From: Hahella sp. HN01
GTDB taxonomy: Bacteria > Pseudomonadota > Gammaproteobacteria > Pseudomonadales > Oleiphilaceae
Direction: 5' to 3'
DNA length: 53,809 bases
Assembly (NCBI RefSeq): GCF_018986435.1
Contig: NZ_JAHMIN010000040.1
Span: 1 to 53,809, forward strand
The notes below the pieces were generated by a model. It saw nothing but the letters and a program-made list of their open reading frames with translations. It was not told the origin of the DNA and did not search any database. Made by a program: the position numbers and the translations under genes. Each line of letters starts with the position of its first letter. Within the stretch, counting starts at the first letter, position 1. Below, in pieces: positions 5,475 through 49,800 of this stretch.

Positions 5475-5504
5475 TTGACAGAGAATTAATGAGGCCAATA
5501 GAGT
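5475..5504 (+). promoter_or_regulatory. candidate sigma-70 promoter for the 5667-10765 operon
   Basis: Consensus -35 TTGACA (5475-5480), spacer 18, -10 TAGAGT (5499-5504). It would leave a leader of about 160 bases before the ATG at 5667. This is pattern matching only. Confidence 0.35.
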
Positions 5505-5666: not shown

Positions 5667-6788
5667 ATGGAGCCGGTTTGTATTGAGGATTGGGAAGAGC
5701 TTGCCAAACGCCGCTTAGCGCCGGAAATCTACGACTTTATCGCCGGCGGCGCGGGGCTTGAGCGGTCTTTGCAGGAAAACATCCGCGCCCTGGAGCGGGT
5801 AAAACTGATTTCCCGTGTGCTGCGCGGCGTTAGCGACGTCGATACGAGCGCGCCGCGTTTATCGCCACTCCAGAGCGCCCGCACGCCCGCCACCCCGATG
5901 ATTGTCGCTCCCAGCGCGCACCATCAACTCGCTCACCCTGACGGCGAGCGGGCGACCCTGGCGGCCGCCAACCAGTGTGGCGCGCCACTCATTGTCAGCA
6001 CCATGTCAGACACGCCCCTGGAGACCCTCTGCAAAAACTCCGCAGAGCCGGTCATGTTTCAGCTTTACCTGTACAAAGATCGCGGACGCAATCGAGACAT
6101 CATTCAGCAGGCGCAGGACGCCGGCTGCAGCGCCCTGGTGCTGACCGTTGATGTGCCACGTATGGGCGCGCGGCTGCGGGATCGTCGCAATAGCTTTGAC
6201 GTTAAGCGCTATCAAAAACGCACAGACCAGTTTGACGAGCCACTATCCAGTGAGCCCCCTGTACCCAGTCAGTCCGGCGGCGTCGCCGCCTTCGTCGCAG
6301 AACAGCTGGAGCCGGCTCTTTCCTGGGCCGATGTGGACTGGGTGAAAAACCAGACCCGCATGCCGTTGATATTGAAAGGCGTGCTGCATCCGCAGGATGC
6401 GGAAATCGCGCTGAAGCACGACGTCGACGCCTTGTATCTATCGAATCACGGCGGTCGCCAACTTGATCACCATGTTTCCGCCATCGACATGCTGCCCTAC
6501 ATACGTCAACGCGTAGGCGAGTCCATGCCGCTCATTGTGGATGGCGGCGTACGCAGCGGCGCAGACATTCTCAAAGCTCTGGCCCTGGGCGCCGACGCGG
6601 TGGGCGTTGGCCGCCCGGTCTTATGGGGACTCGCCGCCGCAGGCGCCCAAGGCGTCGCCGAGGTGTTAAGACAACTCATCGATGATCTGACGCTCAGCAT
6701 GCACCTTTGCGGTTGCGCGTCGCTTGCGGACATCAGCCAGGAAATTATTTGGACCAAACACCCCTCATATCAAGGAGAAACCCTATGA
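5667..6788 (+). CDS. FMN-dependent 2-hydroxyacid oxidase (4-hydroxymandelate oxidase-like)
   Basis: A 373-residue TIM-barrel flavoenzyme of the lactate/glycolate/mandelate family, which oxidises a 2-hydroxy acid to a 2-keto acid. The FMN and catalytic motif YLSNHGGRQLD is intact with the active-site His at residue 261. The downstream phosphate-binding part PLIVDGGVRSGADILKALAL and GADAVGVGRP is also intact. It has no membrane-targeting insertion, so it is soluble. It is the first gene of the operon, and its TGA overlaps the ATG of the next gene (ATGA). Beside an HPPD-like dioxygenase and an arylglycine-type aminotransferase, its best parallel is the hydroxymandelate oxidase step of 4-hydroxyphenylglycine synthesis. 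That role is inferred from context; a general lactate oxidase is the alternative. Confidence 0.85.
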   Translation: MEPVCIEDWEELAKRRLAPEIYDFIAGGAGLERSLQENIRALERVKLISRVLRGVSDVDTSAPRLSPLQSARTPATPMIVAPSAHHQLAHPDGERATLAAANQCGAPLIVSTMSDTPLETLCKNSAEPVMFQLYLYKDRGRNRDIIQQAQDAGCSALVLTVDVPRMGARLRDRRNSFDVKRYQKRTDQFDEPLSSEPPVPSQSGGVAAFVAEQLEPALSWADVDWVKNQTRMPLILKGVLHPQDAEIALKHDVDALYLSNHGGRQLDHHVSAIDMLPYIRQRVGESMPLIVDGGVRSGADILKALALGADAVGVGRPVLWGLAAAGAQGVAEVLRQLIDDLTLSMHLCGCASLADISQEIIWTKHPSYQGETL

Positions 6789-7297
6789 CGACAGGTTGGG
6801 AAAACATGTCTAAGTTAATGCTCAGGCATAAGGCGAAAAAAATTGATCACGTGGCGATCGCTGTGCTGGATCTGGAGCAGGCCATCGGCTATTTCAGCAT
6901 GATGGGATTCACCCTCTCCGATCGCATGACCACCACCGGTGCGCACAGCGCCATGCATTCCGCCGTCATGGAGGCGGGTCCAATCAAGTTCGTTTTATTG
7001 GAAGGCGTCAACGAAGCCTCTCAGATCACCCGCTTTATCAATGAATACGGCCCAGGGCCACAGCACATCGCCATAGAGGTGGACGACGTGGAAAGCCTGT
7101 GCAAAGAGCTGGAAAAACAAGGGCTGGACTTCAGCACCAAAACCATCAAAGGCCCGGACCTCATCCAGCGCTTCACTGTGCGCTGCCCTAATTCCGGCGT
7201 CATGATCGAGTTCATAGAAAGAAACGAGGAAGAAGGCTTTTCGGAGCAGAACGTGGAAGACCTGTTCCGCCAACTGGAAGCCAGCGACGCCTACTGA
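6785..7297 (+). CDS. single-domain HPPD/hydroxymandelate-synthase-like dioxygenase (VOC fold)
   Basis: A 170-residue vicinal-oxygen-chelate protein. Candidate iron ligands are His22 (KKIDHVAIAV), His94 (GPGPQHIAIEVDDV) and Glu142 (MIEFIERN). The C-terminus EGFSEQNVEDLFRQLE closely follows the end of 4-hydroxyphenylpyruvate dioxygenase (the pattern GF-x-x-x-N-x-x-x-LF-x-x-x-E). Known HPPD and hydroxymandelate synthase have two VOC domains in about 350 residues; this protein corresponds to the catalytic C-terminal half alone. Expected chemistry is oxidative decarboxylation of a 2-keto acid without a separate cosubstrate, but an epimerase or other VOC activity is possible. The ATG at 6785 has AAGGAG upstream and overlaps the previous stop, which indicates translational coupling. 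Confidence 0.75.
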   Translation: MTTGWENMSKLMLRHKAKKIDHVAIAVLDLEQAIGYFSMMGFTLSDRMTTTGAHSAMHSAVMEAGPIKFVLLEGVNEASQITRFINEYGPGPQHIAIEVDDVESLCKELEKQGLDFSTKTIKGPDLIQRFTVRCPNSGVMIEFIERNEEEGFSEQNVEDLFRQLEASDAY

Positions 7298-7356
7298 TAA
7301 ACGCCGGCCACCCCGCGGCGACTCTCTCCGACATCAAACATAGAAAGGAATACTAC

Positions 7357-8277
7357 GTGTATATAGCGGAATACCCACTGAGCGAGCAAGAACATGCTCT
7401 GTTGCCCAGCGATGAGGACGTGCGTTTTTACCAGGAGCACGGCTGGTTCATGACCGGCAAAGTGTTTACCGACGAGGAGCTGGACGCCTTCGCTCAGGAA
7501 AGTCGCGATTATTATGCAGGCAAGCGCGACAGACGCTTGCCGACCATGCCTTCCACATTAGCCTACTGGACCCCGGAAGATGGCGATGTCGCCCGCAACA
7601 ATGACTACGTGCATTATGAAAGCGATACGTTTCGGCGTCTGCTGACCAAGCCAATCATTGGCGCTATCGCCGCCCGGCTGGCGCAGACAGACGAAATACG
7701 CGTTTGGAACAGCGCGCTGATCACCAAGCCCGCCCGAGGCGACTTTGCGGCTGAAGGCATGTTTCGCCCCGTCGTCCCCTGGCATAAAGACGCCCATTAC
7801 TGGTCAACCTGCACGTCCAGCAAACTGCTGACCGCCTTTATCAACTTTTATGACTGCTTTGAAGGCATGGGAGCCCTGGAAATGATCGACGGCAGCCATC
7901 GCTGGCGGGAAATCGACGCCAACGACAGCGTCACCCGCCACTTCGGACGGCGCAGCATCGATGAGCTGCAAACCATGCTGGAGGAAACCGCCCAGCTTAA
8001 TGGCGACACCGTCAGAAAAATACCCATGACCAGCAAACGCGGCCATATCAGCTTTCATAACTGCCACACCTTTCATGGCAGCTCCCCCAACTACAGCCAA
8101 GTGGACCGCGTCTCGATTTCTCTTCACCTGCAGGACGGCGGCAACACCTACAAGCGCCACACGATGGCGGACGGTTCCGCGTTGAAATACAACAACGACT
8201 ATTTCTGCCGCCAAAACGGCAACGGCGACCCGGACTACACCGATCCGGATTTCTGCCCGCAAATCTGGAAGGAGTAA
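7357..8277 (+). CDS. phytanoyl-CoA dioxygenase (PhyH) family oxygenase
   Basis: A 306-residue Fe(II)/2-oxoglutarate oxygenase. The iron triad is visible: His143 and Asp145 in PWHKDAHYW, and a distal His at about 240 in TFHGSSPN. Arg251 in DRVSISLHL is the likely 2-oxoglutarate carboxylate anchor. The start is GTG at 7357 with AAAGGAA upstream. The stop is three bases before the next ATG, and that gene's ribosome site lies inside this gene's end, so the two are translated together. PhyH enzymes in biosynthetic operons commonly hydroxylate amino acids or small acids. Here it may tailor the product of the neighbouring enzymes. The substrate is unknown. Confidence 0.85.
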   Translation: MYIAEYPLSEQEHALLPSDEDVRFYQEHGWFMTGKVFTDEELDAFAQESRDYYAGKRDRRLPTMPSTLAYWTPEDGDVARNNDYVHYESDTFRRLLTKPIIGAIAARLAQTDEIRVWNSALITKPARGDFAAEGMFRPVVPWHKDAHYWSTCTSSKLLTAFINFYDCFEGMGALEMIDGSHRWREIDANDSVTRHFGRRSIDELQTMLEETAQLNGDTVRKIPMTSKRGHISFHNCHTFHGSSPNYSQVDRVSISLHLQDGGNTYKRHTMADGSALKYNNDYFCRQNGNGDPDYTDPDFCPQIWKE

Positions 8278-8280
8278 TTC

Positions 8281-9597
8281 ATGAACGCAATGCAACCTCA
8301 GGATGAACGCGAGGAGCTGCCGCTGCATACATCCCTGGCGGACCCATGCCTTAACTCCATGACTTTTCTCAACGATATCGCCGGGCAATATCCCGACGCG
8401 ATATCGTTCGCGCCCGGACGCCCGATCGAAACGGACTTTCGAATCGATGATATCGGTCGTTATCTGCATCGCTATGTCGAGCATCTCACCCAGCAGAAAC
8501 GTCGGCCTGAAAGCGCCGTCATCACTCAGCTGTTTCAATACGGCCCGTCGGAAGGGCATATTCGCGGGCTCATCGCCGAGATGCTGGAGAAAACCGACGG
8601 CGTCATCTGTCGCCCCGAAGATATTGTGGTCACCTCCGGCACCCAGGAAGGAATGATTTTGACTCTGCGCGCTCTGTTCGCCGATCCTCGGGATGTCCTG
8701 CTGGTTCCACAGCCGGTGTACGTCGGCATTATCGGCGCCGCCAGACTGCTGGATATCCGGGTCGAAACCTTCGATGTCCACGATCAGGGCGTGGAAATCA
8801 GTGAAATCGAAAACAAAATCCAGACGCTGGAGGCGGCAGGCGACAAGGTCAAAGCGCTGTATATCAACGCCGACTTCTGCAACCCCACGGGCGTCTCGCT
8901 ACCTCTCAGCCAGCGCATGGATCTGGTCTGGCTCTCCCACACTTACAACTTCACTGTACTGGAGGACAACCCTTACGGTATTTTCGGCGCGGCGAGCGCC
9001 ATCAAGCCGACGCTGGCTTCTCTGGACAGAAACGGCCGCTCCGTGGCGTACCTGGGCTCGTTCTCCAAAACGCTGTTTCCAGGCGTACGCATGGGGTTTG
9101 TTGTATCCCGGCGACTGGCGGAAGCGCTTACCAAAATCAAAAGCATGCTGACGCTCAATACATCGCCGATCTGTCAGGCCGTGGTCGGCGGCGTGTTGCT
9201 GGAATGCAAGGGCGACCTGCGATTGCATTGCGAGAGCAGAATCCATTTCTATCAGAACAATCTGAAGCATTTGCTGCATCAGCTTGAGGTCGCCTTTCCC
9301 AAAGGCTCGCCCCTGCGTTCGCAAATCACCTGGAACAGACCAGATGGCGGCTTTTTTCTCGTGCTCACGCTGCCGTTCACTGTTAACCTGAAACAGCTTA
9401 AAGCCTCAGCGGAACAATACGGCGTACTTTGGACGCCGATGGAAATGTTCTATTCGCCGCCGCGGGAGTCCAATGAAATCCGGCTCTCGTTCAGCTACCT
9501 GACGCCGGAGCAGATCAGCGAAGGGGTTTCCCGCCTGCGCAACTTTATCAAGGAATGTGTGGCCGTACATGCGCCTGAGACGGCGGCCGCCAGCTAG
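8281..9597 (+). CDS. PLP aminotransferase, class I/II, (di)hydroxyphenylglycine transaminase-like
   Basis: A 438-residue fold-type I aminotransferase. The PLP lysine is Lys263 in YLGSFSKTLFPGVRMGF. The aspartate/asparagine region NADFCNPTGVSLP and the C-terminal NEIRLSFSYL arginine are present. The N-terminal segment SMTFLNDIAGQYPDAISFAPGRP is characteristic of transaminases of the hydroxyphenylglycine/dihydroxyphenylglycine type and related 2-aminoadipate-type enzymes. It has no DNA-binding domain, so it is not a MocR regulator. In the operon it would convert the keto acid made by the flavin oxidase to an amino acid, or provide the first keto acid. The ATG follows AAGGAG. The substrate assignment is inferred from family and neighbours. 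Confidence 0.8.
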   Translation: MNAMQPQDEREELPLHTSLADPCLNSMTFLNDIAGQYPDAISFAPGRPIETDFRIDDIGRYLHRYVEHLTQQKRRPESAVITQLFQYGPSEGHIRGLIAEMLEKTDGVICRPEDIVVTSGTQEGMILTLRALFADPRDVLLVPQPVYVGIIGAARLLDIRVETFDVHDQGVEISEIENKIQTLEAAGDKVKALYINADFCNPTGVSLPLSQRMDLVWLSHTYNFTVLEDNPYGIFGAASAIKPTLASLDRNGRSVAYLGSFSKTLFPGVRMGFVVSRRLAEALTKIKSMLTLNTSPICQAVVGGVLLECKGDLRLHCESRIHFYQNNLKHLLHQLEVAFPKGSPLRSQITWNRPDGGFFLVLTLPFTVNLKQLKASAEQYGVLWTPMEMFYSPPRESNEIRLSFSYLTPEQISEGVSRLRNFIKECVAVHAPETAAAS

Positions 9598-9618
9598 AGC
9601 AAAGGAGACAAGCTCGTT

Positions 9619-10521
9619 ATGACCGCTTTTTTATATATCGCCTGTATTCTGGTGTGGGGCACGTCATGGTTCGCGATCCACATGCAATTGGGCGAAGTTC
9701 CCATTCTGACGTCCATTTTCTATCGCTTCGCCATTGCCGCATTACTGCTGCTGCCCGCTCTGTTTTTGCTAAAAAAAATCCAGAAGACCCAGCCTGTCGA
9801 CCACCTGTGGTTCGCCGGGCAGGGACTGTGCTTTTTTTCCCTGAACTTTCTGTGCTTCTATCACGCCACCCAATACATCCCCAGCGGCATCGTCGCGATC
9901 ATTTTCTCCACCGTGCTGCTGTTCAACAGCGTCAATCGCTGGCTGTTCCTGCGTCAAAGCACTTCGCAAAGCGAGTTCATCGGCATCGCCTTCGGCATTG
10001 CCGGCATTGTGCTCCTGTTCTGGCGGGAACTGACGCAACAACACTTTGGCGCGGACTTTTTTACCGGAATGCTGTTCGCACTACTGGGCACACTCGTATT
10101 TTCACTGGGTAATATGATCTCTGTGCGTAATGGAGCCAAGGGCATCACGCCGCTCACCGGCAATGGCTATTCAATGGCTTACGGCGCCATGGTGCTGTTA
10201 ATCGCCGTCTTCGCCACCAACACGCCGCTCAAGTTCAGCTTCACTTCCCAATATATTTTCAGCCTGCTGTATCTGGCGATTTTCGCGTCAGTGCTCGGCT
10301 TTACGATCTACCTGACCCTGGTGAACAAGATCGGCATCAACAAAGCCGCGTACTGTATGGTGGCGTTCCCTATCGTCGCGATCCTGATCTCCACGCTGTT
10401 TGAAGACTATCGGTGGGACGCCACCACATTTTCAGGCGTTGGCGTCATCATCTTCGGTAATTTCTTGATGGTCTCCAAACTCTGGTGGCGACCCGCTTCG
10501 CTGGCCAGACAGCAAAGCTGA
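9619..10521 (+). CDS. EamA/DMT-superfamily exporter
   Basis: A 300-residue inner-membrane protein with about ten hydrophobic segments and two EamA repeats, roughly residues 3-130 and 145-285. It begins FLYIACILVWGTSWFAIHMQLGE, the usual first helix with the W-G-T/S-S-W motif. The ATG at 9619 has AAAGGAG upstream and lies 21 bases after the aminotransferase stop. DMT proteins usually export amino acids, metabolites or toxic compounds. Located at the end of an amino-acid-type biosynthetic operon, it is the likely exit route for the product. Export of that product is an inference. Confidence 0.85.
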   Translation: MTAFLYIACILVWGTSWFAIHMQLGEVPILTSIFYRFAIAALLLLPALFLLKKIQKTQPVDHLWFAGQGLCFFSLNFLCFYHATQYIPSGIVAIIFSTVLLFNSVNRWLFLRQSTSQSEFIGIAFGIAGIVLLFWRELTQQHFGADFFTGMLFALLGTLVFSLGNMISVRNGAKGITPLTGNGYSMAYGAMVLLIAVFATNTPLKFSFTSQYIFSLLYLAIFASVLGFTIYLTLVNKIGINKAAYCMVAFPIVAILISTLFEDYRWDATTFSGVGVIIFGNFLMVSKLWWRPASLARQQS

Positions 10522-10561
10522 TGCAGCTACCCTTCCATTCATATATTTGCAGGAGTCAATT

Positions 10562-10765
10562 ATGCCCGTCGTCACCATCGCGCAATCCCCCGGCCGAACC
10601 TTGGAGCAGAAACGGGATTTGGTGAAAAAAATTACCGACGCCTTTGTGACCAGCTACGGGGTAAAGCCGGAGTCGGTCACGATATTTTTACAGGACTATG
10701 ACGACAGCAACTGGGGAAAAGCCGGTTTGTTGCACGTTGACGCCAAAGCCGGCAAAGACGGGTAA
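10562..10765 (+). CDS. 4-oxalocrotonate tautomerase-like enzyme
   Basis: A 67-residue tautomerase. After removal of Met the protein starts with Pro (MPVVTIAQSPGR), the catalytic N-terminal proline of the family. It also has the conserved pattern R-x-x-E-Q-K-R-x-L-V-x-x-I-T and a late VTIFLQD strand. The ATG at 10562 has AGGAG 6 bases upstream; an upstream in-frame TTG at 10547 would hide the catalytic proline. It is 40 bases after the exporter and in the same direction, so probably the last gene of the operon. A tautomerase acting on an arylpyruvate-like keto/enol pair would fit, but this is inference. Confidence 0.8.
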   Translation: MPVVTIAQSPGRTLEQKRDLVKKITDAFVTSYGVKPESVTIFLQDYDDSNWGKAGLLHVDAKAGKDG

Positions 10766-27017: not shown

Positions 27018-28235
27018 CTATTTCACGATCTGCTTTTTACTGCGGCCGCCTTTCTCGCGCTCGCCCAGTACTTCGTTCACCGTCGGCACGGCAGTGCCGC
27101 CAAACTGCATTTCGTCCCAGGTGATCTGATCCTGGAAATCCTCCTTGGGAATATTCGCCTGGGCGTCATGAGGACGCACCGGCTCACTTTGCGCGTAGCG
27201 CACCACCAGATCGGAAATCGCAGTCAGCGCGTCAATATGGGTGCGTTCGTAACCATGGGTGGCGTCAGTGCCGAAGGTCACCAGCGCATGGCGGATATCA
27301 TGGCCCGCCTGCACCGCCGACACCGCGTCGCTGTAGTAGTAGCGGAATACATCGCGCTGATGGGGAATATGATGATCCTGACACAGATGAATCAGGTGCC
27401 GGGTCAAATGCCAGTCGAATGGCCCCGAGGAGTCTTTCATCGCAATGGTGACGCCATGTTCTTTGGCGTTCTGGCCCTCCGCCACCGGGCCGATATCAAT
27501 ACCGACAAATTCAGTGACATCCGCCTCAATTGCATGCCCAACCCCTGATCCGATTTCTTCTGTCAGGGTAAATATCGGCAGACAATCCATGGCCAGCGGC
27601 AGATTGTGATCAACAATAGCTTTTAACCCTGTCAACAACGCGGCGGTTCCCGCTTTGTTGTCCAAATGACGTGAAACCACAAAGCCATTGGGCAGAAATT
27701 CCGGATTGGGATCAAAAGCCACAAAGTCGCCCACGCAGATACCGATTCTGAGGGCGTCTTCTTTGGTGTAAATGCATTCATCCACGCGGATTTCCACGTG
27801 ATCCCAGGTCACCGGAAGGCGATCCACCTCCTCGTTGTAACGGTGTCCCGCCGCATATAAAGGCAATACCGATCCTCTGAAACAGCCGCTGTCGCTGAAG
27901 ATAGTCACACGCGAGCCTTCCGCGAAGCGGCTCGACCAATGCCCCACCGGAGTCAGACACAAACGGCCGTTGGGCTTGATTTCACGCACCATCGCGCCGA
28001 TGGTGTCCAGGTGCGTCACCACCGCCCGCTGCGGCGCATTCAGTTTGCCCCGCAATCGCCCTTTGATGGTGCCGCGCCGGGTCAGCTCATAATCAATGCC
28101 CAGCTCGCTCAAACGCTCGCACACGTATACAACCGCCCCATCCGTAAAGCCGGTGGGACAAGGAATGGCCAGCAATTCGAGCAATACTTTGGTGAGGTAC
28201 TCAGAGTCCAGGGTATAGCCTTTCTCTTCTATCAT
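27018..28235 (-). CDS. M42-family metallopeptidase of the NAGGN osmoprotectant cluster
   Basis: A 405-residue M42-type aminopeptidase. Metal ligands are all visible: His and Asp in VVTHLDTIGAM, Asp in SRHLDNKAGTAALL, the Glu pair in LTEEIGSG, Asp in FVGIDIGPV and His in TFGTDATHGYERTH. The start at 28235 has AGAGGCGAAG upstream and lies 10 bases after the ngg stop, so translation is coupled. This peptidase is the third member of the conserved asnO/ngg/peptidase trio linked to N-acetylglutaminylglutamine amide, possibly for turnover of the dipeptide. The exact in vivo substrate is inferred from the cluster. Confidence 0.9.
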   Translation of the reverse strand: MIEEKGYTLDSEYLTKVLLELLAIPCPTGFTDGAVVYVCERLSELGIDYELTRRGTIKGRLRGKLNAPQRAVVTHLDTIGAMVREIKPNGRLCLTPVGHWSSRFAEGSRVTIFSDSGCFRGSVLPLYAAGHRYNEEVDRLPVTWDHVEIRVDECIYTKEDALRIGICVGDFVAFDPNPEFLPNGFVVSRHLDNKAGTAALLTGLKAIVDHNLPLAMDCLPIFTLTEEIGSGVGHAIEADVTEFVGIDIGPVAEGQNAKEHGVTIAMKDSSGPFDWHLTRHLIHLCQDHHIPHQRDVFRYYYSDAVSAVQAGHDIRHALVTFGTDATHGYERTHIDALTAISDLVVRYAQSEPVRPHDAQANIPKEDFQDQITWDEMQFGGTAVPTVNEVLGEREKGGRSKKQIVK

Positions 28236-28245
28236 AACTTCGCCT

Positions 28246-30006
28246 CTAAGATGCATGTCGTACGCTCCGCGTCAGCGGGAACAGCAAATCGATAAAACGT
28301 TGCGCCGTCGGCTGGGGCGCGTGATTCTCCAGCCCTGGGCGTTCATTGGCTTCAATAATGACGTAATCCGGCGAGGTGTGGTCCTTGACGATGAAGTCCA
28401 TGCCCACCACCGGAATTTGCAGCGCTCTGGCGGCCTCTTCCGCCGCCGCGCGCAGTTCGGGATGCAGATCGTCGGTGACGTCAATCAGCGTACCGCCGGT
28501 ATGTAGATTAGCGGTGCGCCGCACAAACAGGTGTGCTTCCACGGGCAACACGCTGTCCCAGTCATAGCCCGCCTCGCGAATACAGCGTTCGGTTTCCGCA
28601 TCTATGGGGATCTGGCTCTCTCCCCCCGTCGCCGCGGCGCGACGACGGCTTTGTTTTTCCACCAGCGTGCGAATGGAATCGCGTCCGTTGCCGTAGATCT
28701 CCGCCGGGCGACGAATCGCCGCCGCCACCGTGTCGAAGTCGATCACCACCACCCGCAGATCGAATCCGGGATGATAAGTCTCCAGCAATACCGATGAGGA
28801 AACGCTTTCTGCTTTGCTGATCGCGGCATGCAGGTCGTCCACATTGCGGATATCCACGGAGATGCCTTTACCCTGCTCACTATCCAGTGGCTTCACCACC
28901 ACCGCTCCGTGATCGGCGAGAAACTCTTCCGCCTGCTCCCGCGAGTGATACAGTTGATAAATCGGCGTGCGCAGACCAGCGCGGGCGCAGGTGCGATGCG
29001 TCAGCATCTTGTTCTGGCACAGGGACATGGTCAGCGCCGTCGTCATGTCGGTGAGAGACTCATGGCAACGTATGCGACGACCGCCGAAGCTCAAGGTGAA
29101 CAGGTTGTTGACCTCATCATCAATCACCACCTCAATGCCTCTGCGCATGGCCTCGTTAACGATGATTTTCGCGTAAGGATTCAGCTTCGCGGACGGCTCC
29201 GGTCCAACAAACAACTTCTCATTGATGGCGTTTTTCTTTTTGAGCGCAAAGGTGCGTATCGCCTGAAACCCGAGCTTTTCGTATAGCGCCTTGGCTTCAT
29301 AATTGTCATGCAGCACGCTAAGGTCCATGTACTGGCATTCCCGCGTCTGAAAGTATTCCGCCAGATAGCGCACCAGCGCTTCGCCGACGCCCGGCGTCTT
29401 ACTGTCCGGAGACACCGCCAGACACCACAGACTGGAGCCCTTGCTGGGGTCGCCAAAGGCCTTGATGTGGTTCACGCCCATTACGGTGCCGATGATCTTG
29501 CCGCTGCCCAACGCCTCCGCCACCAGATAGACGACATCTTTGGAATGACGATGCGCGAGCACATGATCCACAGGTGCGCAGACCATTTTTCTCTGGGTGA
29601 AAATCGCATTCAGCGCTTCCACGTCCGCCGTGCTGCTGGCTCGTCTGACCGTGACGCCCGGCAGAGCGCGAGTGCGTGGACGATACTGACTCATCCACAA
29701 GCGCATGGTGTCGGAGGGGTCCAGAAACAGCGACTGCGGCGCATGACTCAGCACCACATGCGGGTCCGCGACGTAGAGCGCGATATCGCGATCGCCGGAG
29801 GACTCTTCCGCCAGACTCTTCGCCAGTTCTTTCGGGCTTTCGAATGTATTCGCCAGCAGCAGTCGCCCCCAGCCGCAGTGAACGCTCACATTCCTGGGAG
29901 CGTCCACGTCCGCGTCGGCGCGTATATGTTCCGCCTGCATGGATTCGTATGACGGCATTTGTTTGCGCAACATCCTTTCATGATGATGGCGGGGTGTAAT
30001 AGCCAT
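28246..30006 (-). CDS. ngg: N-acetylglutaminylglutamine synthetase (GNAT plus ATP-grasp)
   Basis: A 586-residue two-domain enzyme. The N-terminal GNAT acetyltransferase region covers about residues 110-265, with a CoA-loop-like CLAVSPDSKTPGVGEALVRY and VLHDNYEAKALYEKLGF. The C-terminal ATP-grasp ligase spans about 300-586, with VVVKPLDSEQGKGISV, a DLRVVVIDFD strand and the catalytic end GMDFIV...IIEANERPG. It would acetylate and join two glutamines. The ATG at 30006 has AAAAGG upstream; a longer upstream frame is not supported. It lies between asnO and the M42 peptidase in one operon. The family is well known as part of the NAGGN pathway. Confidence 0.92.
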   Translation of the reverse strand: MAITPRHHHERMLRKQMPSYESMQAEHIRADADVDAPRNVSVHCGWGRLLLANTFESPKELAKSLAEESSGDRDIALYVADPHVVLSHAPQSLFLDPSDTMRLWMSQYRPRTRALPGVTVRRASSTADVEALNAIFTQRKMVCAPVDHVLAHRHSKDVVYLVAEALGSGKIIGTVMGVNHIKAFGDPSKGSSLWCLAVSPDSKTPGVGEALVRYLAEYFQTRECQYMDLSVLHDNYEAKALYEKLGFQAIRTFALKKKNAINEKLFVGPEPSAKLNPYAKIIVNEAMRRGIEVVIDDEVNNLFTLSFGGRRIRCHESLTDMTTALTMSLCQNKMLTHRTCARAGLRTPIYQLYHSREQAEEFLADHGAVVVKPLDSEQGKGISVDIRNVDDLHAAISKAESVSSSVLLETYHPGFDLRVVVIDFDTVAAAIRRPAEIYGNGRDSIRTLVEKQSRRRAAATGGESQIPIDAETERCIREAGYDWDSVLPVEAHLFVRRTANLHTGGTLIDVTDDLHPELRAAAEEAARALQIPVVGMDFIVKDHTSPDYVIIEANERPGLENHAPQPTAQRFIDLLFPLTRSVRHAS

Positions 30007-30091
30007 ATTGATGTAACCTTTTCGTGCCTGAGGTTGCTTAACGCAGCGCCGGTGAGACGCTGCGGGCTTCACGGCTGAATAATGCTTACCG

Positions 30092-31864
30092 TTATAAATT
30101 GTGGCGCTGCAGCCAAAGCTCCAGCAGGCCAAGCTGCCAGAGTTTGGAGCCGCGCAACGGCGTAATGTGCATATCGGGCGACAACAACAGGTTGTCCACA
30201 TACGCCTGATCAAACAGGCCGCGCTCCCGTGCGCTTTGCGTGGACAGGGCTTCCTTCACCCACTCCAGAATGGTCCCACGCAGATACTTCAGCGCAGGCA
30301 CCGGAAAATAGCCTTTGGGGCGGTCGATCACTTGAGAAGGAATAACGCGGCGCGCGGCTTCCTTCAAAATCCATTTGCCTTCATCTCTCACCTTCAATGG
30401 CGATGGAATACGCGCGGCCAGCTCCACCAGCTCGTGATCAAGGAACGGCACCCGCGCCTCCAAGCCGGCGGACATTGTCATGTTATCCACCCGCTTCACC
30501 GGGTCGTCCACCAACATGACGCTCATATCCAGACGCAACGCCTTGTCCACCGGGTCATTGGCGCCGGGACGCAGGAAGTGCTGCTTGACGAACTCGCCAG
30601 CGTAATCCGGCGCTATCCAGCGAGGCTGCACTGTCTGCTTGTATTCCTCGTAACTGCGGTCAAAAAACGCTTCGCGATAACAGGCGTAGGGATCTTGCGC
30701 GCCCACCAGCGGCGGATACCAGTGATAGCCGCCGAACACCTCGTCGGCGCCCTGCCCGCTCTGCACCACGCGACAGTACTTGCTGACTTCCTGGGACAAC
30801 AGATAAAACGCCACGCAGTCGTGGCTGACCATCGGTTCCGACATCGCGTCGATCGCTTTCGGCAAGGCCGAAAACATGCGGTCCGAGGCGATCTGAATTT
30901 TGTGATGACGAGTGCCGAAATGATTGGCGATGATATCGGAATAGTGGAACTCGTCCCCTTCTTCCCCGCCAACCGCTTCAAAGCCGATGGAGAAAGTCTG
31001 AAATCCGTCCGGAACCACTTCCGCCAGCAATCCGACCAGCAGACTGCTGTCGACGCCGCCGGAGAGCAGCACGCCGACCTCAACCGCCGCGTTATTGCGA
31101 CGGCGCACGGACGCGAACAAGGCTTCCAGTAGACGATCGCGCCAATCATCCGCGGTCAGCGCCTCGTCGCCAGGCTGCATGCCGAAAGCAAGACTCCAGT
31201 AGCTGCCCGTGTTGATGTTTCCGGTTTTATCTAGCTCCATCCAGGTTCCCGGCTGCACTTTGTAGATACCTTCAAAAATCGTATCAGGCGCCGGTATGAC
31301 GGAGTGGAAGTTGAGATACATATTCAACGCTTTGGGGTTGATCCGCGCGTTGAAGTCCGACGCTTTAGCCAGCGCCGGCATAAATGAGGAGAAACGCAGC
31401 GCTTTGGCGTCATGTTGAAAATACAGCGGCTTGATGCCAAGACGGTCGCGGGCCAGCATCGTTTTACCGCTGTCGCGCTCCCAGACAGCCAGCGCAAACA
31501 TGCCGTTGAACCGGGTCAGGCAATCCTTGCCCCATGCATGATAGGCCTTCAACACCACTTCCGTATCGCCGTCAGAATAAAATGTATAACCCCGACCTTC
31601 CAATTCAGCGCGCAATTCCCGGTGATTGTAGATAGCGCCATTGAACACCAGCGCCAACCCTAACGCAGGGTCGTACAGCGGCTGCTGAGACGCATCGGAA
31701 AGGTCCATGATTTTCAGGCGCCGGTGGCCGAATGCGATATTGTTCTGGACGAAGACGCCTTCGGCGTCCGGGCCGCGGGGGGTTTGAATGTCGTTGGCGT
31801 GACGGATGAAATTTAAATCGGGCGAGTGGTTGTCGAAGCGGATCTCTCCGCATATGCCACACAT
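30092..31864 (-). CDS. asnO: asparagine-synthase-like glutaminylglutamine amidotransferase
   Basis: A 590-residue class II glutamine amidotransferase. The mature protein starts with nucleophile Cys2 (MCGICGEIRFD). The glutaminase domain is residues 2-210, and the synthetase domain has the PP-loop GVLLSGGVDSSLLVGL at about residue 275. In NAGGN clusters this enzyme amidates the C-terminus of the acetylated dipeptide rather than making asparagine. The ATG has AAGGAG five bases upstream. It is first in the operon with ngg (85-base gap) and the peptidase. A perfect palindrome overlaps its -35 region, so a repressor, probably the divergent MarR protein, may control it. Confidence 0.92.
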   Translation of the reverse strand: MCGICGEIRFDNHSPDLNFIRHANDIQTPRGPDAEGVFVQNNIAFGHRRLKIMDLSDASQQPLYDPALGLALVFNGAIYNHRELRAELEGRGYTFYSDGDTEVVLKAYHAWGKDCLTRFNGMFALAVWERDSGKTMLARDRLGIKPLYFQHDAKALRFSSFMPALAKASDFNARINPKALNMYLNFHSVIPAPDTIFEGIYKVQPGTWMELDKTGNINTGSYWSLAFGMQPGDEALTADDWRDRLLEALFASVRRRNNAAVEVGVLLSGGVDSSLLVGLLAEVVPDGFQTFSIGFEAVGGEEGDEFHYSDIIANHFGTRHHKIQIASDRMFSALPKAIDAMSEPMVSHDCVAFYLLSQEVSKYCRVVQSGQGADEVFGGYHWYPPLVGAQDPYACYREAFFDRSYEEYKQTVQPRWIAPDYAGEFVKQHFLRPGANDPVDKALRLDMSVMLVDDPVKRVDNMTMSAGLEARVPFLDHELVELAARIPSPLKVRDEGKWILKEAARRVIPSQVIDRPKGYFPVPALKYLRGTILEWVKEALSTQSARERGLFDQAYVDNLLLSPDMHITPLRGSKLWQLGLLELWLQRHNL

Positions 31865-46413: not shown

Positions 46414-46886
46414 CTTGCTCTCCGGGCTGGGTTGAGAACGCTTCTCATCGGTGGATGAGCGTCACGCCACGCTCTCTTTTAATCTTAGATGAGTTTGATT
46501 ACCGCGCGGCGATTCAATTTCAGTTTAACAGCAGAATTTTCGACGCTTGCAAGTAAACCTAGGTTTAGGCCCCTCGTTTATTCCTTTCTGTGTATTCAAC
46601 CTGTATTTTGTTCAAAAAATAACCAAACCGAATTTTCATTGCTATTCTGATTCAAGCAGTCCTCTAACAATAACGACCCGATCGACAGACAAGCCGAACG
46701 CCATCCCCTTGTCGGTCAACATGTTGTCGGTCAATACAATGCGTGCAACGCATTGGCGTAGCCCATCACCCTGGAACCAGAGCGGCGCAGTCCGACGCTC
46801 CCTTGCGCCCGGACATCGCAGTCAAAACGCCGCCGAACGGACATCAACCTCATAACAAGTCCTTTGCTAGGGAAGGAGTTCCGGCC
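46414..46886. promoter_or_regulatory. divergent region between the histidine kinase and the fusion enzyme
   Basis: About 470 bases, AT-rich in its middle. It holds the palindrome TAAACCTAGGTTTA (46554-46567) followed by GG, a second copy of the TAAAC-N4-GTTTAGG motif. An open frame runs in from 46743 in phase with the fusion gene but has no ribosome site. Confidence 0.5.
46554..46569. promoter_or_regulatory. operator-like repeat TAAAC-N4-GTTTAGG, copy 2
   Basis: TAAAC-CTAG-GTTTAGG, with perfect symmetry over 14 bases. Same arm sequence and spacing as the site at 43782-43799. It lies about 140 bases upstream of the kinase start and 320 upstream of the fusion gene. Confidence 0.5.
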
Positions 46887-49800
46887 ATGCACTTTCATCT
46901 TTCCGAACCATTCGAAAGCCTGATAAAAGATGCGCTCCCAGAAACGCGGGTCCACGATACCGATGTATTGATTATCGGCTCCGGCTATGGCGGCTCCATC
47001 GCCGCCATGCAACTGGCGGGGGGCAAGTCTTCCGGAGACAATGCCGGTGGCGCGACAGTGACAGTGTTGGAACGGGGCAAGGAATACCGTCCTGGGGATT
47101 TCCCGGAAGCCTTGGGGGATATTCCCGGCCATATGCAATTACTCAAATCCGGCTCCACCCGCCCGATTGGCTATGCCGACGCGCTCTATGATTTCCGCAT
47201 TGGTAAAGAGGTGGATGTGCTGGTGGGCTGCGGGCTCGGCGGCGGGTCGCTGATCAACGCCAACGTGGCCCTGGAGCCAGAGGCGGATACATTGGCGCAG
47301 GCCGCCTGGCCGCGTGAGTTTCGGGAGCACCCTGGACTGCTGCAAGCGCACTTTAAAAGAGTGCGTCACTTGCTGGGAGTCCGCGATCAGGATCAAACCG
47401 CCCGCGACAGGCTATGCCGTCTCCCCAAGTTTCAGGCGCTGACCAGACTCGCCAACGCAATTGACGCGTCAGTGGAAACAGCGCCATTGACCATCAGCAT
47501 GCGTCCTGGCGCCAACGCCGTCGGTGTTGAGCAGCCGGGCTGCAATCTCTGCGGCAACTGTGTTTCCGGATGCAATCAGGGCGCAAAGAATACCCTGGCC
47601 ATGAACCTCATTCCGTTGGCTAAAGCCCGTGGGGCCAGATTTTACACTGGCGCCACCGTGCTCACTCTGGAGCCTATTGTCTCTTCTGCTACGGATAATA
47701 CGACCGGGCCAAACGGGCGTCGTTGGCGGGTGCGGGTACGACGCACCGCTACGGAAAAGAACAGTCTGTCCGACGAGGTATTCTGGGTTGAAGCCGCCAC
47801 CGTCATCCTGGCGGCGGGGGCGCTGGGAAGCACGGAAATTCTGTTACGGTCGCAGAATTCCGGCCGTTTGCAGCTCTCCGACAGGCTGGGCAAGCGCTTT
47901 TCCACCAACGGCGACGGTTTCGCCATGAGCTATGGACAGGCGAACCCGGTCATGGCGATCGGCAAGCCTGACGAATCTCTGCAAGCCGGCGAGGAGTCCT
48001 GCGTCGGCCCAACCATTACCGGCGTATCCCGCCCGCTGGCTCGCCATCCCGAAACCGGCGCAGAAGTACGTTTGACCTTGGAGGACGGCTCTGCGCCCTA
48101 TGGCGTGGCGCGCCTTTTCGGCGAAATCGCCACCACCGGCGCGCAACTGAACCGTCTCACCGACATGACCTTGCCCGCCTGGTTTCTCAACGCGAGTAAA
48201 AACGGCATATTCAAAGATCCTCTGGCGCACCACAACGACGCCATGGACCGATCGCAAATCCTCCTGATCATGGGAGATGACGGCGCCGCCGGCGGCCTTT
48301 CCCTGCGCGCCAGCGATAACCCCGCACAACAGGCTGACACAGACTACTCCCGCATTCGCGTCGATTGGCCCAAGGCGGCGGAGAACCCCTGCCTGACCGC
48401 GGCTGACGCCCTGCTGCGCAGCCAGGACAGAAAAGAAGGCTTCGACGGCGGCCAGTACGTCCCTAACCCTCTTTGGAAAACCCTGCCGGATGACGCCTCT
48501 ACCGTTATGAGCGGCAAGCTTCCCGGCGGTCGCGTCATCACTGTGCACCCGCTGGGTGGCTGCGCCATGGGCGACGGTCCCGACACCGGGGTCGTCAACC
48601 ATTACGGCCAGGTCTTCAAAGCCGATCCAAGCGCCAGGAATACGGACGCACCCGCTTTGCATGAGGGGCTATATGTGCTGGATGGCTCCATCCTGCCGAC
48701 CGCTCTGGGGGTCAATCCGTTCCTGACCATATCCGCGTTGTCTCTTCGGGCCGCAGAGGCGATTCAGGAACAACATGACTGGCTTGCGCCAACGCAGGAA
48801 CAGGTCAGTCCTGAGCTGGCGCAAGCCATCTCTCCAGTAAAACAGTCCGCGTCTACCACGGCGGCCAAGCCCAGCCCCACAGTGACGCTGAGCATCAGCG
48901 AGCAGATGTTCGGCCGTTTGCAGGCGCAGGAAGTCAACGCTCGTCTGCCCGACTGGATAGAAAGCTGGATCAAACAGTGGGCCGAAGCGCTCCCCACTGA
49001 GGCCCAACCCGCCAGTGGCGTCGCTGCGCGTCTTACCGGTGATCAGGGCCTGATCTTCAAGGTGGAAACACAGATAGAAGATCTGCATGACTGGTTGCAG
49101 AAACCCGGAGAGGAGCTGAAAGCGACGGCGAAGCTGTACCTGAATCCGCTCAGCGCGGAGCAAACCGCCAAAATGCACACTTACGGTCTGCCTCCGGAGC
49201 TGTTGCAAGGCGCGATTCCCATCGCTGTCGGCGAAGGCGTAGTGCGCCTGCTGCACTGCGATGAACCCGGTCCGCTGACCACCGCCTGGCGCGGCGCGCA
49301 GGCCCTCAACGCTTATCGCACCCGCCGCCAATCTTTGTCCGGCTTCGCCTTGCGTCAGCTCAAACAGCGCCTGAGTCGCTGGGATTCAGACGCTTCGCTG
49401 AAGGAGCCGGCGCCAGGGCTGTTCAAACAAATCAAAGGCTTCTGGACCGTCGCCAAGCATCATGCGCAATATCGTCGCATGAGTTACAACTTCCAGTTCA
49501 CCCCTAATACCAACGGCTCGCGCACGCCTCATTTCAAAAACATGCCTGGGGAGATCATTCACCTGCGCGGAGAAAAGCTGCTGGCCTGGAAGAACGGCGT
49601 TCCCAGGCTCTGGCGCGCCCTGACCAATCTTCCCATCGAGCTGTCCCACCAGCGCTATGGCGACGCTGTGTCGGGCTCCCTGTACGTGGACATGGAGTAC
49701 ATGTCGGAAAGGGGGCTGGCTCAGGTGGTCAAATCGCCCAATCTGCCGGAGTCCGCCATGGCGGCGGCGGGCCTGGGCATGCTGTTTCTGCGCTGCTTGC

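Follow-up and report, generated by a model that had tools for sequence, protein, structure and literature searches.

In the clusters for glycopeptide antibiotics and for the calcium-dependent antibiotic (CDA), 4-hydroxyphenylglycine (Hpg) is made by HmaS, a hydroxymandelate synthase (HMS), together with Hmo and HpgT, and the same three types of reaction are predicted, in the same order, for an operon of six genes at positions 5667–10765 of a 53,809-nt stretch of DNA from Hahella sp. HN01 (contig NZ_JAHMIN010000040.1; the window, by which we mean the whole stretch analysed). The window operon differs from that pathway in its putative HMS of a single domain, in the lack of an adjoining nonribosomal peptide synthetase (NRPS) gene, in having its own EamA exporter gene, and in the extra genes for a PhyH-family protein and a tautomerase. 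HMS and 4-hydroxyphenylpyruvate dioxygenase (HPPD) are textbook VOC dioxygenases, the latter being a drug and herbicide target. The L-phenylglycine operon pglA–E of pristinamycin producers is likewise small and yields its arylglycine by a final transamination, although its route, as given in PMC7089894, runs through phenylacetyl-CoA; the window operon encodes neither the pyruvate-dehydrogenase-like subunits nor the thioesterase involved there. We propose, with a probability of roughly 0.6, that the window operon makes an arylglycine, most likely Hpg or an oxidised form of it, by way of a one-domain HMS, and that the product is exported free.

Open reading frame (ORF) calls and matches to Pfam and TIGR profiles bore out the six genes, all on the + strand, and the families claimed for them in an original prediction made from the sequence alone. 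The features, including those dependent on flavin mononucleotide (FMN) or pyridoxal phosphate (PLP), are:

5475..5504, + strand: possible promoter (TTGACA-18-TAGAGT), sigma-70-like and weak, in the gap ahead of the first gene
5667..6788, + strand: FMN-dependent 2-hydroxyacid oxidase, proposed 4-hydroxymandelate oxidase (Hmo-like); FMN_dh, 398 bits (Pfam)
6785..7297, + strand: one-domain VOC protein of HMS/HPPD type, 170 amino acids, proposed hydroxymandelate synthase; residues H22, H94, E142, Q80, Q128, N156 and V157
7357..8277, + strand: PhyH-family Fe(II)/2-oxoglutarate dioxygenase; PhyH, 75 bits
8281..9597, + strand: PLP class I/II aminotransferase, proposed arylglycine aminotransferase; Aminotran_1_2, 106 bits
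9619..10521, + strand: EamA/DMT transporter, proposed exporter; EamA, 105 bits
10562..10765, + strand: 4-oxalocrotonate-tautomerase-type protein with Pro1, proposed arylpyruvate keto-enol tautomerase; Tautomerase, 52 bits

In the proposed pathway, the one-domain VOC protein would use Fe(II) and O2 to decarboxylate 4-hydroxyphenylpyruvate and hydroxylate its benzylic carbon, giving 4-hydroxymandelate, which the FMN oxidase would convert to 4-hydroxyphenylglyoxylate; the aminotransferase would then form the phenylglycine, perhaps with tyrosine as the donor, so returning hydroxyphenylpyruvate. The tautomerase would keep the arylpyruvate in its keto form, PhyH would contribute one added oxidation at some stage, and EamA would export the final amino acid.

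Conservation of the gene set

The oxidase and VOC genes overlap (ATGA) and the PhyH and aminotransferase genes are 3 bases apart, in keeping with the coupled starts described originally, but the remaining gaps, of 59 bases before PhyH, 21 before EamA and 40 before the tautomerase gene, do not fit that description. All six starts, that of PhyH being a GTG, are preceded by what looks by eye like a plausible ribosome-binding site. The region contains four sigma-70-like sites against a mean of 3.6 after shuffling, i.e., no excess. G001, G002 and G005, three genomes of the same genus, carry all six genes in identical order, with proteins 82–99 % identical to those of the window, and the operon is therefore not a chance array. 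In genomes G003, G004 and G006 only the VOC gene was looked for, and it was not found save for an epimerase-like match in G003. An AI-2E-type gene lies upstream in all seven genus genomes; a GH18 gene occurs downstream only in the four that have the operon.

The same genes accompany a full-length HMS in actinobacteria. A search of plasmids identified a 51.5 % PhyH match in Streptomyces angustmyceticus (locus L021), where the gene order is IclR, DhaL, HPPD-family, 2-hydroxyacid oxidase, PhyH, aminotransferase, DMT transporter, prephenate dehydrogenase and a 119-residue “isomerase” that matches the CHMI family with 39 bits. The HPPD-family protein has HmaS (2r5v, 275 bits) as its best match in the PDB, and identity with the window proteins is 40 % for the oxidase, 52 % for PhyH, and 45 % for both the aminotransferase and the DMT transporter. 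Scanning genome contigs with the PhyH sequences of the window and of this plasmid brought up 46 further loci, 47 with L021, and at 37 of these (close-PhyH loci) the PhyH protein is at least 47 % identical to that of the window. At 36 of the 37, an HMS gene lies no more than 3 kb from PhyH, and none of the 10 more distant loci has HMS; the sole close-PhyH locus without it (L071) is on a 13-kb contig that contains an adenylation (A) domain motif. The DNA fetched around the close-PhyH loci also contains the oxidase gene at 29 of them (23 within 3 kb), the aminotransferase gene at 28 (25 within 3 kb), prephenate dehydrogenase at 19, EamA at 13, and DhaL and a tautomerase-superfamily gene (4-OT or CHMI type) at eight each. 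Locus L031, from Longimycelium, carries HMS, oxidase, PhyH, aminotransferase, a 4-OT-type tautomerase and EamA and is, judging by these families, the window's set with HMS replacing the one-domain protein. The original prediction had proposed looking for the genes together elsewhere, and they recur in both the genus and actinobacteria; its stand-alone arrangement with an exporter has counterparts at the 13 close-PhyH loci with EamA, and its order of chemistry, from 2-keto acid to 2-hydroxy acid, to a shorter keto acid and to an amino acid, agrees with that of the HMS pathway. An arylglycine product thus appears well supported by comparison. In the original prediction this product was also suggested to be free and hydroxylated and to serve as a signal or antimetabolite, properties that it may have.

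The aminotransferase is not always at hand. At L037, L040 and L059 the first fetch gave HMS and PhyH alone, and adjacent oxidase and aminotransferase genes lie ca. 15–20 kb away on what we take to be the same contigs. L045, L054, L057 and L058 have the oxidase gene and no aminotransferase gene in the fetched DNA; the only aminotransferase match of each of these genomes is on another contig, adjoining, in the case of L045, L054 and L057, the genome's other HMS-PhyH cluster. Since PhyH accompanies HMS even where the aminotransferase is distant or missing, our guess is that it may act before amination.

Some of these loci show further features. Two different HMS-PhyH clusters occur per genome in five genomes as paired by record titles (L027 and L039, L030 and L055, L034 and L045, L035 and L054, L041 and L057), three of the pairs being confirmed as the same genome. 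Ketosynthase and AMP-ligase genes accompany the HMS-PhyH pairs, in Actinokineospora among others, at L034, L035, L037, L040, L041, L045, L046, L054 and L057–L059, with the families checked in L034 and L037 and assigned at the other loci by clustering; L037 also has genes for an E1 dehydrogenase subunit and a DUF3050 protein. In Streptomyces djakartensis and S. monashensis (L049 and L050), a set of HMS, PhyH, prephenate dehydrogenase, aminotransferase and oxidase genes adjoins ATP-grasp genes, of the L-amino acid ligase type in L049, where it was checked and where there is also an EPSP synthase gene; this set looks like a small peptide pathway. In genome G451 (L084:5948-12455), two inverted ORF copies with identical starts enclose an MFS gene and a PhyH relative (46 % identical to PhyH of Streptomyces), an arrangement that may be an IS (insertion sequence)-like element.

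Catalytic residues of the operon proteins

The VOC protein was aligned as part of 13 one-domain rows with nine HMS catalytic domains and the two-domain HPPD that its own genome encodes separately. It shares with HPPD and HMS the 2-His-1-Glu metal site (H22, H94 and E142), invariant in all 13 one-domain rows and in 10/10 rows of its profile A2, and two Gln residues and the C-terminal helix with its Asn: Q80, in the motif SQ(I/V), is kept in 12 of the 13 rows, with Asn in S. meliloti, and Q128 (LxQxF) and N156 (last helix) are present in all 13. We take Q80, Q128 and N156 to be substrate-site residues of HPPD and HMS. The residue following the helix Asn is Val (V157) in 11 of the one-domain rows and a gap in the two from S. 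garamanticum, in contrast to Ile in all nine HMS rows and Phe in the HPPD; a further row, from genome G1129, has Met. According to PMC3720870, Ile355 of the S. coelicolor HMS is a pocket residue, and conserved residues of this kind separate HMS from HPPD; by its motif, FGSxNI, Ile355 would fall at the site of V157. A profile-profile comparison of the VOC protein with the HMS catalytic domain gave a probability of 98.9 (E 2.8e-17, 154 columns).

For the oxidase, 4-hydroxymandelate oxidase (5zzp) and human hydroxyacid oxidase 1 reached nearly equal PDB scores of 264 and 266 bits, and the top entry, a tandem lactate oxidase chain with 354 bits, sums two stretches of ca. 176 each. Seven ligand residues of Hmo are named in PMC6677016 (Phe24, Ala79, Tyr128, Met160, Arg163, His252 and Arg255), and the window oxidase has all seven of them (F24, A84, Y134, M166, R169, H261 and R264); in an alignment of 30 oxidases, however, the two variable places have Phe (the first residue) in only eight and Met (the fourth) in 15.

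The His-X-Asp motif, distal His and Arg of PhyH (H143, D145, H240 and R251) are present in 37/37 rows, and its predicted structure (predicted local distance difference test, pLDDT, 86) matches SnoN, SnoK, proline hydroxylase H11, MysH, GriE and EctD, of which H11 and GriE are hydroxylases of free amino acids. The EamA protein matches the amino acid/amine transporter model TIGR00950 with 92 bits, under the cut-off of 230, and the tautomerase has Pro directly after the initiator Met. A plasmid search with the aminotransferase returned 39 records, of which two were opened besides the one already known, the second lacking annotation.

Peptide synthetases near relatives of the one-domain protein

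A different destination for the arylglycine, which we consider unlikely, would be an NRPS encoded elsewhere in the genome, as in Vibrio and rhizobial relatives, with EamA exporting something else or a by-product. The plasmid relatives of the one-domain protein, which also support the arylglycine pathway as such, favour it: a search matched 15 records, 10 of them with a query coverage of 80 % or more, and at six of the seven regions opened the relatives, ca. 40–44 % identical, adjoin NRPS genes, with a PLP aminotransferase gene adjoining at four. Vibrio europaeus has NRPS, TauD, PhyH, VOC and aminotransferase genes and an Ldh-family oxidoreductase (Ldh_2, 296 bits) in the expected place of the FMN oxidase; VOC, aminotransferase and NRPS genes occur together in Rhizobium T136 and S. 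chiapasense, as they do in Bradyrhizobium 187, whose aminotransferase gene is apparently split in two, and Paraburkholderia sabiae has VOC and NRPS genes. In S. meliloti T073 the VOC domain is fused to a chorismate mutase, next to genes for prephenate dehydrogenase, a class IV aminotransferase, pabB and NRPS. A second such fusion, from G1129, adjoins ORFs of the chorismate-binding and GATase families, a pairing known from pabB/pabA. The mutase domains of the two fusions match CM_2 with 73 and 72 bits; genome G656 has a VOC gene plus an Aminotran_1_2 ORF. The fusions point to a substrate derived from chorismate, therefore to an arylpyruvate.

A pabB-type gene and a chorismate mutase accompany the one-domain VOC in S. 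meliloti T073 (L078/L092), Bradyrhizobium 187 (L091), where they lie some kilobases away, and contig G1129:C85 (L124), with a pabA-type gene also in L091 and L124 and the fusions in L078 and L124. Such loci suggest 4-aminophenylpyruvate as an intermediate and hence peptides that incorporate 4-aminophenylglycine. After the NRPS/VOC/aminotransferase cluster of V. europaeus plasmid pVEu there is, on the opposite strand, a penicillin-binding protein 2 gene (mrdA; L089:34351-36213), which could be a copy for self-protection. Genome searches for the one-domain protein yielded few members: including the own or centre genome, there were three among 398 genomes of the phylum, one among 369 of the class (profile A2) and two among 295 of the family to which G656 belongs. 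A search of viral contigs found no relative, and phages gave one weak partial match.

The original prediction stated that no NRPS accompanies the operon, which is true of the six genes and of the scanned neighbours but not of the genome, where 20 A-domain-like places in NRPS-like genes leave room for such a use. Against it, none of the 13 codes that a rough script read from these places (seven gave none) is Hpg-like, the best, in two modules, agreeing with the Hpg code at 4/9 positions; both resemble glycine codes. At the 13 related loci that have EamA, the DNA fetched showed no A5 motif (YGPTE), and a loose condensation-domain pattern matched once each in L029, L033 and L042. For the relatives, the Vibrio code read by eye (D-I-V-H-L-G-L-V-L) agrees at 6/9 positions, or 5/9 by the script, which misread one position; the script gave 5/9 also for a Rhizobium module that is probably specific for glycine. 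The code D-I-L-H-L-G-C-T-F, from a rhizobial module shared by L090, L091 and L094, agrees at 5/9 by eye and 3/9 by script. These codes hint weakly at Hpg use by the one-domain relatives. Locus L082 from Streptomyces, with aminotransferase, HPPD-family, MbtH and NRPS genes, was intended as a positive control and gave no Hpg-like code.

Descent of the one-domain protein and alternative functions

In a tree of 44 rows, comprising one-domain proteins, catalytic and N-terminal domains of HPPD and HMS, and epimerase-like proteins, 10 of the 11 one-domain rows cluster with all 10 HPPD/HMS catalytic domains (support 98/95), apart from 12 of the 13 epimerase-like rows and from the N-terminal domains, with long branches flagged, the row of genome G817 outside the clade and an odd epimerase-like row (L017) inside it. 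Excluded from the tree were L012 and L020 (two-domain, HPPD-length), L016 and the two S. garamanticum copies. The tree speaks for a place of the VOC protein on the HPPD/HMS side rather than on the epimerase side, and the HMS-like function first proposed for it is likewise supported by comparison. The frame in L016 (L016:1450-2061, − strand, genome G062; 204 residues, 33 % identical over residues 16–163) has an HPPD-like tail ending in Asn-Ile and is perhaps another one-domain lineage, on a contig of 3.6 kb.

Several findings weigh against an arylglycine pathway built on this protein. With 170 residues and one domain, against 339–398 residues for the HPPD and HMS rows compared, it lacks the N-terminal domain as well as 30 loop residues of the nine aligned HMS rows. 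It scores 80 bits with the HPPD model TIGR01263, far below the family cut-off of 277, its best stretch covering model positions 149–265 of 353, whereas the Streptomyces HMS scores 325. HPPD and HMS entries top a PDB profile search by totals that sum several matched stretches (up to 99 bits; HmaS 2r5v, 86), but the best single stretches belong to a glyoxalase (62 bits) and a methylmalonyl-CoA epimerase (58 bits), and the top HPPD catalytic domain obtains only 39 plus 17 bits. Epimerase-like proteins of related genomes are 33–38 % identical across the core (six best). The structure predicted for the VOC protein alone is poor (pLDDT 52), and the model was for this reason kept out of fold searches. 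Two degenerate VOC copies in S. garamanticum have no pathway genes nearby, and the distant relative in G817 adjoins a TPR-sulfotransferase ORF, with no pathway genes seen. The window operon itself has no prephenate dehydrogenase gene. Its PhyH is assigned to no pathway step by fold or residues; PhyH relatives (ca. 32–38 %) on two Planktothrix plasmids and on Burkholderia and Paraburkholderia plasmids sit in other settings, as do two of the three PhyH proteins found among 369 genomes of the class, the third being from the own genome. The aminotransferase forms a deep, unplaced branch in a tree that included no characterised HpgT.

The epimerase-like scores and identities favour a VOC protein that is an epimerase or another glyoxalase-type enzyme in an operon modifying a different 2-hydroxy or 2-keto acid, and methylmalonyl-CoA epimerase is also a single VOC domain of similar length. 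We nevertheless regard such a function as improbable. The match to the epimerase model TIGR03081 reaches 63 bits, under its cut-off of 115; the C-terminal Asn-Val helix of HPPD/HMS type, retained in the VOC protein, is missing from the 13 epimerase-like rows; and at the alignment site where epimerases presumably have Gln as their fourth metal ligand the VOC protein has no Gln. The clade with HPPD and HMS, the two chorismate mutase fusions and the HMS in this place at 36 of the 37 related loci also argue for the HMS-like function. FMN hydroxyacid oxidases and tautomerases often take part in the degradation of aromatic compounds, which would fit an operon that takes up and breaks down mandelate-like compounds, but this catabolic reading is very improbable and was set aside, as the six genes and the scanned neighbours, which cover part of the window, include no benzoylformate decarboxylase or ring-cleavage gene, and the aminotransferase, the link to HMS, and the NRPS, ketosynthase and ligase genes near relatives point to synthesis.

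We would put at even odds a broader view, that of a proteobacterial family of one-domain HMS, near-basal to the HPPD/HMS catalytic domains, which would carry out the decarboxylation and benzylic hydroxylation with a protein of about half the normal length. It would serve arylglycines of peptides, probably 4-hydroxyphenylglycine and, where pabAB and chorismate mutase are present, 4-aminophenylglycine, and in the window a free, exported amino acid further oxidised by PhyH. The HPPD and HMS chains among the PDB matches are all of at least 357 residues. Our literature search, with most subscription journals outside it, found no paper linking hydroxymandelate synthase or hydroxyphenylglycine with phytanoyl-CoA dioxygenase, none on a gene cluster for aminophenylglycine biosynthesis and, at the level of listings, none using “single-domain” for HPPD or hydroxymandelate enzymes; an earlier description of a one-domain HMS or of the HMS-PhyH pairing is possible. 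If the one-domain form works, it would reveal for which functions the N-terminal domain is dispensable and offer both a model for the origin of HPPD and a compact catalyst for the production of mandelates and phenylglycines. From the stand-alone operon, a free, perhaps bioactive aromatic amino acid is to be expected in this proteobacterium and in several Streptomyces.

Two further arrangements were observed in the window. Genes for an M42 peptidase, a GNAT/RimK ATP-grasp protein and an asparagine-synthase-like protein lie in tandem at 27021–31864, a trio that resembles the genes for N-acetylglutaminylglutamine amide synthesis. At 46743–52778, a single ORF of 2,011 amino acids matches GMC oxidoreductase, alpha/beta hydrolase and PhoD-like phosphatase, an unusual fusion.

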